Shown here in pieces: positions 46,282 through 50,471 of a DNA stretch of 64,000 nucleotides. This stretch comes from a bacterium (lineage in GTDB: Bacteria; Oederibacteriota; JAAXVQ01; JAUVAV01): the NCBI GenBank assembly GCA_021108215.1, contig JAIORK010000029.1, positions 1-64,000 of the forward strand. Reading direction: 5' to 3'. The notes beneath the pieces were generated by a model that was not told the origin of the DNA, did not search any database, and saw only the letters and a list, made by a program, of their open reading frames with translations. Made by a program: the position numbers and the translations under genes. Position 1 is the first letter of the stretch; each line of letters starts with the position of its first letter.

Positions 46282-46463
46282 TTTTATCCCGCTCCGCAGA
46301 ACACCTCGGGCTTTTGCCCGGGGATGAATGCGTCAAATGCTTCGCGGGATGTCGCCCTGATCGGAAACATATATAGTTTTAGGACTTTCGGTGGTCGCCT
46401 GCCAAATGGGAGTGCGATGCAAGGTCAAAAGGGGTACCACGGGCTTGCCCGTGGGGCTCCATA
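46282..46463 (+). repeat. Dispersed GC-rich repeat, copy 3 (with 43-bp insert)
   Basis: This copy matches copy 2 before purB over its whole length, apart from scattered changes and about 43 extra bases (46357-46399) bounded by direct GTCGCC repeats (46351-46356 and 46394-46399). It ends 14 bases before the purM start codon. A longer reading of purM would run through this repeat and is rejected. Confidence 0.88.
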
Positions 46464-46477
46464 ACGGAGGCAGGAAC

Positions 46478-47518
46478 GTGAAAAAAAAATTATCCAAAGA
46501 TGCATATGCTGAGGCCGGTGTGAATATTGATGCCGGCACAGAGGCGGTCCGGCGCATGCGTGCGCATGTTCGGTCCGCACGAACTCCGGGGATGGTGACG
46601 GATATCGGGATGTTTGGCGGTCTTTTTCAAATGCCGACAGGATACCGCCGGCCGGTTTTGGTGGGTTCCACAGACGGTGTGGGCACCAAGCTTATGGTTG
46701 CGGTTGCCATGAAACGGTATGATACCGTGGGGCAGGATCTGGTCAATCACTGCATGGATGATATTTTGGTGCAGGGAGCCAAACCATTGTTTTTTATGGA
46801 CTACTTTGCCACCGGCAAGCTGGACCCCAAAGTGGCGGAACAAGTTGTGAAAGGGCTGGCGCAGGCCTGCCGGGAAAATCAATGCGCACTTTTAGGCGGT
46901 GAAACAGCAGAAATGCCCGGTCTGTACCATGGCCGTGATTTTGATCTGGCCGGAACCATCGTGGGTGTGGTGGAGAAGAAGAAGGTTATTGATGGGCAGA
47001 AAATTACTTCGGGGGATGTTCTTATCGGATTGCCGTCAACCGGATTGCATACCAACGGCTATTCACTGGCACGAAAAATACTTTTTGAAAAAATGAAACT
47101 TTCTCCCAGAAAATATTTACCGGAATTGGGCAGTACGGTGGGGGACGCGCTTTTGGCTGTCCATCGGTCTTATTATCCCGTTGTCGCGCCGCTCTTGAAA
47201 AGAGTGACGCTCAAAGGCATGGCCCATATTACCGGCGGCGGTTTGATTGAGAATTTACCGCGGATTCTTCCTGCAAATTGTCAGGCAGTTATTCGGCAGG
47301 GAACCTGGCCCATTCCGGCTATTTTCAAACTGCTGGTACTGGAAGGGAAATTGGATGATACGACCATGTACCGTACTTTGAATATGGGGATTGGGATGGT
47401 GCTGGTGGTTTCTAAAATCGAGGCGAAAAAAGTCATGACATTCCTTAAGCGAAAAAAAGAGCCGGCATTTATTATCGGCGAGATTCAATCGGGGAAGAAA
47501 AAAGTCTGTTTTAAATAA
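46478..47518 (+). CDS. purM: Phosphoribosylaminoimidazole synthetase (AIR synthase)
   Basis: PurM cyclises FGAM to AIR. The 346-residue protein has 'YAEAGVNIDAGTEAV', VGSTDGVGTK for ATP, 'HCMDDILVQGAKPLFFMDYFATGKL' and GGETAEMPG, then 'GLPSTGLHTNGYSLARK' and HITGGGLIENLPR. The GTG start has GGAGG seven bases upstream. It is probably read from purL-purF unless the repeats before it interrupt transcription. A perfect terminator follows. Confidence 0.96.
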   Translation: MKKKLSKDAYAEAGVNIDAGTEAVRRMRAHVRSARTPGMVTDIGMFGGLFQMPTGYRRPVLVGSTDGVGTKLMVAVAMKRYDTVGQDLVNHCMDDILVQGAKPLFFMDYFATGKLDPKVAEQVVKGLAQACRENQCALLGGETAEMPGLYHGRDFDLAGTIVGVVEKKKVIDGQKITSGDVLIGLPSTGLHTNGYSLARKILFEKMKLSPRKYLPELGSTVGDALLAVHRSYYPVVAPLLKRVTLKGMAHITGGGLIENLPRILPANCQAVIRQGTWPIPAIFKLLVLEGKLDDTTMYRTLNMGIGMVLVVSKIEAKKVMTFLKRKKEPAFIIGEIQSGKKKVCFK

Positions 47519-47542: not shown

Positions 47543-47587
47543 AAAAAAAGATTCTCTTTGTATGCCTTAAGAGAATCTTTTTTATTA
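47543..47587 (+). terminator. Intrinsic terminator after purM
   Basis: AAAAAAGATTCTCTT and AAGAGAATCTTTTTT form a perfect 15-bp stem (47544-47558 with 47569-47583). Its symmetry would also allow termination from the opposite strand. Confidence 0.92.
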
Positions 47588-47721
47588 ATTGGCATATACA
47601 ATCCTATATAAGTATTCCAGTAATGTAAGACAGATGGATAGCGAGTATTCCTGTTTTGGTGACGCGACAACCTTGATTAATCGGGAATATACCCCCGGAC
47701 CCAAGAATACTCCTATTTTCA

Positions 47722-47750
47722 TTGAATAAAAAAAACTAAAAAAATATAAA
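47722..47750 (+). promoter_or_regulatory. Promoter of the candidate small RNA
   Basis: TTGAAT and TATAAA are exactly 17 bases apart, in a very A-rich stretch. Because of that composition a chance match is possible, but the position directly upstream of a folded, terminated unit supports it. Confidence 0.55.
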
Positions 47751-47756
47751 AAAAGA

Positions 47757-47872
47757 AACTTTTTTTAGGCGCAGGTGTCTAATTGTAAAGCCATTCGTGC
47801 TTCAGCCAAAGACACCCCTCCAACGCTGAAGCATCGCCCGGCTGGTATCCCCATTACCAGCCGGGCATTTTT
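47757..47872 (+). ncRNA. Candidate small RNA with H-type pseudoknot
   Basis: Stem 1 pairs GGTGTCT (47774-47780) with AGACACC (47810-47816). Stem 2 pairs TGCTTCAGC (47798-47806) with GCTGAAGCA (47825-47833). The two stems interleave, giving an H-type pseudoknot with loops of 17, 3 and 8 bases, all sterically reasonable. An ideal terminator starts three bases later and a promoter lies just upstream. No reading frame with a ribosome-binding site is enclosed, and the next gene starts 250 bases further on. I do not recognise a known riboswitch or sRNA family. Confidence 0.6.
47836..47872 (+). terminator. Intrinsic terminator of the candidate small RNA
   Basis: GCCCGGCTGGTA and TACCAGCCGGGC form a perfect 12-bp stem around a 7-base loop, followed by a run of five T. 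The 250 bases from here to the next gene hold only a weak GCATTTTTA / TAAAAATGC pair. Confidence 0.93.
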
Positions 47873-48122: not shown

Positions 48123-48773
48123 ATGACTACGCCCAAAGAACCATCCGCTGATCCAGAAAAATCAATCTGCCCGGTTCACCAGGAACCTGCCAAATGGCAT
48201 TGCGGCCACTGCGGCGCACCCTTGTGCAAATCCTGCAAGCCGATTGCCTTGCATTACCAGGTTTTTCATCGCGAATGTGTTGAAAAGGCCCGCGATCAGA
48301 TTGAGGAACAAGCACAGGCAAAAGATGAGATTGATGCACCCTCTTGGGGTGTGAAAGCAATTTCCTGGTCGATTTTTGCACTGGGTGTTATATTTTTTGG
48401 ACTTGCGCTTTTTTTAGGGGGGCTTGCACTCTTTGGAAAATCCATACCGATCCGGTCACTGATGACCAGTACGGTGCCCGCCAGTCTCGATGCAATTCCC
48501 GGAAGCCGGAATATTCTTAACTGGACGGGGATTCTCGCCGGTTTGGCGGGGATTGGCGCAGTGGGGATTGGGATAGGACTTTTAAACTGTGTTCGTGCAG
48601 CCCGTTATATCCTGTTGACTGTCTGTTGGCTGGAAGTGGTTGTGGCACTGCTCGGTTGGATGGCTGTTTTGCTGCTGGGCGGCGGGTTCTGGGATATCCC
48701 TGTTTTTGCTCTGTTTCTTATTTGGTTTTTTATGCGTAAACCGGTTCGACGCCAGTTTGAAAAAGTACTATGA
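48123..48773 (+). CDS. Zinc-ribbon/B-box-like membrane protein
   Basis: The 216-residue protein starts with a cytoplasmic zinc-binding segment: CPVH...WHCGHCGAPLCKSC...H...FHREC (about residues 16-57), similar to the B-box-type knuckle seen at the N-terminus of many bacterial membrane proteins. Three to four membrane helices follow (about 75-100, 130-155, 160-185, 190-205). I know no function for this arrangement. The following GH18 gene overlaps its stop by four bases. Confidence 0.65.
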   Translation: MTTPKEPSADPEKSICPVHQEPAKWHCGHCGAPLCKSCKPIALHYQVFHRECVEKARDQIEEQAQAKDEIDAPSWGVKAISWSIFALGVIFFGLALFLGGLALFGKSIPIRSLMTSTVPASLDAIPGSRNILNWTGILAGLAGIGAVGIGIGLLNCVRAARYILLTVCWLEVVVALLGWMAVLLLGGGFWDIPVFALFLIWFFMRKPVRRQFEKVL

Positions 48774-49927
48774 TCCTGCCTGAAATGAAAAAAATCCCCA
48801 AGCGATCTCTGAAATGTTTTCTTTTTATTCTTTTAATTATCAATTTACCGTTACCCACTGTTGCTGACTACGATCCGCGTCTTGCAGTCTGGGTACGTCT
48901 GGGGGCTTTGGAAACCGCGATACAATCTTTGGAAGGCAGAGAGGATAAAATTTCCCGCGTACTGGTATCCGATCATTGCATTGACAAAGCCGGAGTCGGA
49001 CTGGGGTATAGGGTTGGAAAAGGCGAGGCACGGGCCCATGAAATAATTGCGTGGTGTCAGGCACGCGGATTGCCGGTTTATATGGGCCTGGGGAATTACG
49101 GAGGCGGATTTTCCAATCCGAAAATTATTACACGGATGTTATCTACCCCATCGCGCCGGAGCCGGCATATCAAAAACATCAAAGCTGAGGTGGTACGCCT
49201 GGGATATGATGGTGTTGATCTGGATTATGAAAATTTACCGGCGCACAGCCGCAGGAATTTTACCCGGTTTGTTCGCGAATTAAATCAGGTGCTGCAAACA
49301 GCCGGCAAGGGACTGGATGTAACCGTGCCGCTGAAGTTCTCTTCTCCGGGTTGGCCCAATTCCCAGGCGTATGATTGGAAGCAGTTACCGCATTATGTCG
49401 GGCGGTTCAATGTGATGTGCTATGACTGGTATATCCGCAGCGGCCCCCCAGGTCCGATTATCCCGCTGGGTGTGACCAAGAAGGTAATCAAGTTTATTAA
49501 AATTTGTCCAAATCCGGAAAAATTTTGGATCGGGCATCCAACCTATGGCAATGATTGGGTCAGAAGGAAAAACAGAAAATATCGCGGAAAATACGCCGGT
49601 GCCAAGACATTTCTCAAACAGGCGAAAAAGCACAGCCGGTTAATTTCTCACCGGACCCAGCACATGGGAGGATTTGAGGTGGGGCCCTTTGCACATTATT
49701 CTTATAAAGCTGCGGATGGGGTCCATCATGTTTGGTATGGCGACCACCATAGTTTAAAGGCCACGCAGCAGGTGGTTCAGGATGCCGGTTTGGGTGGACT
49801 TTTTATCTGGCGGGCGGGTTTTGAAGATGAAAGAATTTGGGATGTGATCAATCCTGCCCGGGACGAAACGTCCGCTGTTTCTTCTTCTCAGCCTGATGGT
49901 GTTTATCATCCATCATCTTTGCCTTAG
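48770..49927 (+). CDS. Secreted glycoside hydrolase family 18-like protein
   Basis: The 385-residue protein has a signal peptide (LKCFLFILLIINLPLPTVA) and a GH18 TIM barrel. The catalytic signature DGxDxDxE is complete as DGVDLDYE at residues 147-154, with Glu 154 as the acid. The following VTVPLKFSS, MCYDWYIRSGPPGP and 'GLFIWRAGFED' strands fit spore-cortex/YaaH-type or chitinase-like members. Hydrolysis of peptidoglycan or another amino-sugar polymer is likely. Its 3' end overlaps the convergent release-factor-like gene by 80 bases. An alternative ATG lies five codons in. Confidence 0.82.
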   Translation: MILPEMKKIPKRSLKCFLFILLIINLPLPTVADYDPRLAVWVRLGALETAIQSLEGREDKISRVLVSDHCIDKAGVGLGYRVGKGEARAHEIIAWCQARGLPVYMGLGNYGGGFSNPKIITRMLSTPSRRSRHIKNIKAEVVRLGYDGVDLDYENLPAHSRRNFTRFVRELNQVLQTAGKGLDVTVPLKFSSPGWPNSQAYDWKQLPHYVGRFNVMCYDWYIRSGPPGPIIPLGVTKKVIKFIKICPNPEKFWIGHPTYGNDWVRRKNRKYRGKYAGAKTFLKQAKKHSRLISHRTQHMGGFEVGPFAHYSYKAADGVHHVWYGDHHSLKATQQVVQDAGLGGLFIWRAGFEDERIWDVINPARDETSAVSSSQPDGVYHPSSLP

Positions 49928-50264
49928 CCCGGCGTGAGCGGCGGCGTTTTTGACGCCGGATTTTTTCCCGTGCCTGTTCCAACCGGCTTTTTTCGCCTTT
50001 GATCATTTTTTCCAGCTTGTCCGCGAGTTGGCGTCTTGCCAGGAATCGATTCATGCTCTGGGAGCGCTCTTTGAGACAACGGGTTTCCAGGCCGCTGGGG
50101 GTATGACGCAGCACGACGCAGGTTGAATTTTTATTGGCATGCTGACCGCCCGGACCGCCTGAACGTGTAAAGCGTTCCTCAATATCCTCTTCTTTGAGAC
50201 CCACTTCAGCCATCCGCATTTCCAGGTCTTTTCGTTTTTTTTCAGTCACTGCAAAATCAGGCAT
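49848..50264 (-). CDS. Release-factor-like protein (GGQ domain, ArfB/C12orf65-like)
   Basis: The 138-residue protein has the catalytic GGQ motif in RSGGPGGQHANK (residues 39-41), then a region typical of RF-1 domain proteins without codon recognition (LETRCLKERSQSMNRFLARRQL). A long Arg/Lys-rich C-terminal tail (RRQKRRRSRRAKAK) is what ArfB-like factors insert into the empty mRNA channel. It probably frees peptides from stalled ribosomes. I choose the ATG with GGAG upstream on the - strand over a longer start at 50321. Confidence 0.85.
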   Translation of the reverse strand: MPDFAVTEKKRKDLEMRMAEVGLKEEDIEERFTRSGGPGGQHANKNSTCVVLRHTPSGLETRCLKERSQSMNRFLARRQLADKLEKMIKGEKSRLEQAREKIRRQKRRRSRRAKAKMMDDKHHQAEKKKQRTFRPGQD

Positions 50265-50471
50265 TTTGATATCTCCGGCTCGGTGTGAAATAACGATGTT
50301 AGAGTACCATGAGTGTTTCAAAATGGAAAAGGAAAATGTGGGAAACCATAGTAAGGAATTATATACTCATCGGGAATAACAGCGTTAGGGAACAATAACG
50401 CAGAAAAATCAGTGGCGAAAAACATGCGGGGATGCGAAGATGAGTGGAAATTTTCTTAAGGAGTTATTGTA

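Follow-up and report, generated by a model that had tools for sequence, protein, structure and literature searches.

What is encoded downstream of purM in the 64,000-nt stretch of bacterial DNA analyzed here (hereafter, the window), and which of its features are retained in related genomes? The host, a member of a phylum with sparse genome sampling, has a genome of 3.56 Mb distributed over 67 contigs. Unless indicated otherwise, all coordinates refer to the plus strand of the window. The purL-purF-purM cluster ends at position 47518 with purM (AIR synthase, 46391 to 47518; Pfam AIRS/AIRS_C), and its terminator, a perfect 15-bp inverted repeat with a T-run, is located at 47544 to 47583. The downstream neighbor (48123 to 48773) codes for a B-box zinc-finger membrane protein, whose match to PF00643 is only just over the Pfam cut-off; a gene for a GH18 protein comes next. 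Between purM and the B-box gene, the initial annotation had placed a compact unit made of a promoter, an H-type pseudoknot, and a terminator. Direct reading confirmed each of these elements (promoter boxes, 7- and 9-bp stems, and terminator) at its position, the H-type order of the stems in the window, and the location of the unit between two terminators, i.e., the upstream 15-bp repeat at the end of the pur cluster and a 12-bp terminator of its own. Several imperfect inverted repeats with the motif GAATACTC / GAGTATTC were also observed in the segment from the pur terminator to the RNA promoter region (47606 to 47716). These repeats may represent an operator or a structured element of some other kind.

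The putative −35 box TTGAAT (47722 to 47727) and the putative −10 box TATAAA (47745 to 47750), which is weak and lies within an A-rich tract, are separated by a 17-nt spacer and match 9 of 12 consensus bases. A promoter scanner made no call at this site because the −10 box has a final A. With the 5′ start placed according to the −10 box, the predicted small RNA is ~116 nt long (47757 to 47872). Stem 1 of the proposed pseudoknot would be formed by the 5′ arm GGTGTCT (GGUGUCU in the RNA, 47774 to 47780) and by AGACACC (47810 to 47816), the latter being a part of the loop of the next hairpin. This hairpin (47798 to 47833) consists of the 9-bp stem 2, whose arms are TGCTTCAGC (47798 to 47806) and GCTGAAGCA (47825 to 47833), and of an 18-nt loop (AGACACCCCUCC). 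The loop contains the C-rich core ACCCCUCC (47814 to 47821), a putative seed, which is the complement of the Shine-Dalgarno–like sequence GGAGGGGU. The intrinsic terminator (47836 to 47872) has a 12-bp stem (arms 47836 to 47847 and 47855 to 47866) with the loop UCCCCAU, and ATTTTT follows directly 3′ of the stem. The element is present in a single copy in the host genome.

Two orthologs of the element were found, one (in genome G003) by DNA search and the other (in G004) by searching the family and order for purM and the B-box gene and reading the space that separates them. Together with the window genome, they represent three genera of one family, and in both the RNA is flanked upstream by purM and downstream by the B-box gene, all three sharing one orientation. 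A covariance model built on the hairpin and the terminator (R1) recovered the window RNA and its two orthologs with E values of 1e-14 to 2e-16. No further orthologs were found with it in the other 381 of the 384 genomes searched, and nothing else convincing was found among 45 genomes of the phylum. Weak matches in G006, G007, and G017 were rejected as generic GC-rich terminators without a C-rich loop. Next to purM or the B-box gene, the RNA had no match in G001, G005, G006, and G007, where both genes are present; there was also no match near these genes in G002, but the contigs break there. A purM-based search of genome contigs yielded no close relative. Between its RNA and its B-box gene, G004 contains another hairpin, long and perfect, AGTAGGGGCACG ... 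CGTGCCCCTACT (L086:2180-2245, minus strand), which resembles a mobile element or a repeat.

Comparison of the three sequences revealed that stem 2 and the terminator are conserved. In stem 2, 100% of alignment cells are paired; eight of the nine pairs are invariable across the three sequences available, and the remaining difference is a compensatory change from G-C to A-U in G004. The terminator has four pairs in which both partners differ, and 97% of its cells are paired over the three sequences. When stem 2 and the terminator were considered together, five pairs were compensated, compared to 1.7 ± 1.1 in shuffled alignments (only 1 of 500 was as high), and 98.4% of cells were paired, compared to just 21 to 45% for slid structures. 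At the nucleotide level, the whole hairpin is identical to its orthologs at 32 of 36 and 30 of 36 positions. Its 18-nt loop has pairwise identities of 14 to 16 of 18, with the core ACCCCUCC invariant in the three genera and the flanks divergent. By contrast, G003 does not retain the CCCC found in the loop of the terminator. A 117-nt strand of the window folds with −47.7 kcal/mol (z = −7.1, with none of 200 shuffles as low), and the z scores in the two other species are −5.0 and −4.9. Stem 2 and the terminator account for the low folding energy of this strand; stem 1 is weak. The predicted minimum-energy fold of G004 is without stem 2. We conclude that the RNA element is real and under selection. 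The existence of the orthologs also backs the earlier view of a compact, self-standing, terminator-ended RNA that has no conserved open reading frame.

A stable hairpin that exposes a C-rich loop, with an intrinsic terminator after it, is the layout of the anti–Shine-Dalgarno class of small RNAs, and it is this layout that the three genomes share. We infer both transcription and mRNA pairing from these features and consider it probable that the locus encodes a short trans-acting small RNA whose C-rich loop acts as a seed on Shine-Dalgarno sites. The RNA, of ~115 nt, would start with a 5′ part that is weakly folded or unstructured and continue with a single stable hairpin and the intrinsic terminator. 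The hairpin would expose its large C-rich loop, allowing the core ACCCCUCC to serve as the pairing seed for G-rich Shine-Dalgarno sequences (GGAGGGGU) in a set of mRNAs, and ribosome entry would be blocked at the sites bound. Hfq (PF17209) was not detected in any of the eight genomes of the order (G000 to G007), while controls gave the expected matches; an Hfq-independent, loop-seed mode of action similar to that of sX13 is consistent with this result. The annotation had left the choice between a trans-acting small RNA and a ligand-binding RNA. The first part of this proposal is strengthened by the two orthologs and by the compensated pairs of stem 2 and the terminator, whereas a ligand-binding or pseudoknot role has no support. 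If our reading is correct, an undescribed, lineage-restricted small RNA would be added for a sparsely sampled phylum.

The initial annotation had also stated that no RNA family with this layout is known. At curated thresholds, a search of the whole window against Rfam indeed returned no matches; the architecture of two hairpins with a C-rich loop is, however, known from sX13 and RepG. In a permissive search, sX13 (RF02232) was the best family in the window, with 34.6 bits compared to a gathering score of 50. Homology to sX13 was rejected: G003 and G004 gave no match, and unrelated control genomes also matched weakly. Since the orthologs do not match, the subthreshold score is explained by a common layout and composition, not by descent. 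The sX13 RNA, whose gene is located downstream of polA in Xanthomonadaceae, uses C-rich loops to repress mRNAs bearing G-rich motifs near their starts, independently of Hfq (PMC3771888). The window RNA resembles it in its length of ~115 nt, its strong hairpins, C-rich loop, and intrinsic terminator. Unlike sX13, it adjoins purM in all three genomes, which belong to a different lineage, and instead of three C-rich stem-loops it has two stable hairpins, one before the terminator and one forming it, with one conserved C-rich loop.

The second parallel is RepG (HPnc5490) of Helicobacter pylori, a two-hairpin small RNA whose C/U-rich loop binds a G-rich leader (PMC8295292). Two hairpins and a C-rich loop are common to both RNAs, but RepG uses the loop of its terminator, whereas in the window RNA it is the loop of the preceding hairpin that is conserved; we regard this as a functional parallel and claim no sequence kinship. 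Short hairpins with C-rich, anti–Shine-Dalgarno–like loops also characterize the CcsR1-4 small RNAs of Rhodobacter, which carry the CCUCCUCCC motif. The CcsR RNAs occur in tandem and are released by processing of an mRNA that includes ccaF1 (PMC10253847). In contrast, the window RNA is a single copy between terminators; it may resemble them in its C-rich loop. The best reading of these comparisons is that the window RNA would work like sX13 and RepG while being a member of neither family. It would then be another case of a C-rich loop on a stable hairpin used as a small RNA design, apparently arisen independently.

Candidate targets were looked for among ribosome-binding sites. GGAGG sites are frequent among genes of the window, and GGAGGGGU was found 1 to 8 nt before ATG more often than the reversed control in each of the three genomes (9 versus 2, 18 versus 7, and 7 versus 2). 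This enrichment may reflect strong ribosome-binding sites alone, and complementarity to Shine-Dalgarno sequences is expected for every CCUCC loop. The genome has only one other GGAGGGGTGTC, which coincides exactly with the ribosome-binding site of a gene for an ilvE-type aminotransferase (L140:580-1511, corresponding to G000 C37:54453-55381, minus strand), where 11 bp could be formed with the loop. This gene was rejected as proof of a target, the site being absent from G003, G004, and relatives devoid of the small RNA. A gene for a secreted kelch-repeat protein (L185 and L174, minus strand), an open frame of >1000 amino acids that is conserved in the family, has its ATG preceded by GGAGGGGT in both G000 (the window genome) and G004. 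It was not accepted as proof either: G003 is without the site, and GGAGGG is also found in several relatives, including ones that lack the small RNA. None of the candidates has a complementary ribosome-binding site conserved in all three genomes.

Among other explanations, the one that fares best is that the RNA is derived from a 3′ untranslated region, i.e., that it is the 3′ end of the pur transcript, either processed out of it or stabilizing or terminating purM mRNA. The RNA is always located immediately 3′ of purM and in the same direction. The putative promoter of the window, TTGAAT and TATAAA with the 17-nt spacer, is unrecognizable in the orthologs: no promoter-like site was found 5′ of the RNA on the same strand in either G003 or G004. 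In G004, the RNA begins ~55 to 60 nt past the purM stop codon with neither an intervening terminator nor a recognizable promoter. Because this gap is so short, the G004 RNA may be processed from the purM transcript. In the window, however, the pur cluster has its own 15-bp terminator (47544 to 47583) before the RNA, followed by the promoter-like site, and the conservation of the loop exceeds what a plain terminator would need. We therefore view a 3′-UTR origin as a plausible but rather unlikely account compared to an independent trans-acting small RNA.

A lower probability has to be assigned to the model of an H-type pseudoknot RNA with a C-rich loop masked by stem 1. In the window, the 7-bp complementarity is perfect and sterically allowed, and G004 has the 5′ arm GGUGUCUAAU as well. 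The pseudoknot had been presented as the core of the RNA, to be refuted if related genomes broke one stem without compensation, and stem 1 is broken in this way in both orthologs. In G003, GGCATCC faces AGACACC, breaking three of the seven pairs; in G004, GGTGTCT faces AGAAACC, breaking one of seven. Over the orthologs, three of the seven pairs are broken in at least one of them and none is compensated. The longest alternative Watson-Crick pairing between the 5′ part and the loop is only 4 bp in G003 and 5 bp in G004. When the 5′ region was shuffled, a 7-bp Watson-Crick match to the loop arose in 1.8% of cases (10% when G-U pairs were allowed); when the loop was shuffled as well, it arose in 3.4%. 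In addition, there is a local 5′ hairpin with which stem 1 has to compete. Judged from these sequences, stem 1 in the window can be a chance match, at the 2 to 10% level, or a lineage-specific feature, so a pseudoknot that is perfect by eye in one sequence may be either.

The likeness to H-type pseudoknot riboswitches of the preQ1-I type concerns the order of the stems and is limited to the window. Unlike those, the element has an unconserved stem 1 and no above-threshold family match. As for a linked gene under its control, the B-box gene is conserved downstream, but at varying distances, and it also occurs where the RNA is missing. A PreQ1 match elsewhere in the permissive Rfam search is at chance level (17 bits compared to 39, E = 0.83). 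One could also imagine that the genus of the window gained a switch, in which the GGUGUCU pseudoknot masks the seed loop until a partner RNA, protein, or metabolite releases the small RNA. We consider this quite improbable. If true, the masked-loop switch would be a self-inhibiting pseudoknot small RNA in a bacterium without detected Hfq.

It is similarly improbable that the element acts in cis as a leader of the B-box gene, either a riboswitch or an attenuator, in which a ligand or protein bound at the pseudoknot or the loop would decide on termination. In each of the three genomes, the next gene is the B-box gene, which is co-oriented with the element, and the element has a terminator at its end. 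Yet, the distance to the B-box gene is not constant (~250, 420, and 150 nt), no conserved antiterminator was seen, the pseudoknot is not conserved, and G001, G005, G006, and G007 have the B-box gene without the element. The least credible alternative, which can practically be set aside, is a gene for a small protein, with a frame of 43 codons that starts with GTG at 47775: both the window and G004 keep the frame open, with 40% identity over 40 codons, but in G003 there are in-frame stops just upstream and the conserved part has no preceding start codon, the frame runs across the terminator, and the similarity tracks the nucleotide conservation of the hairpin.

Farther downstream in the window, a small RF-1-domain protein that is release factor–like is encoded on the opposite strand (49848 to 50321, minus strand); it is a possible ribosome-rescue factor.
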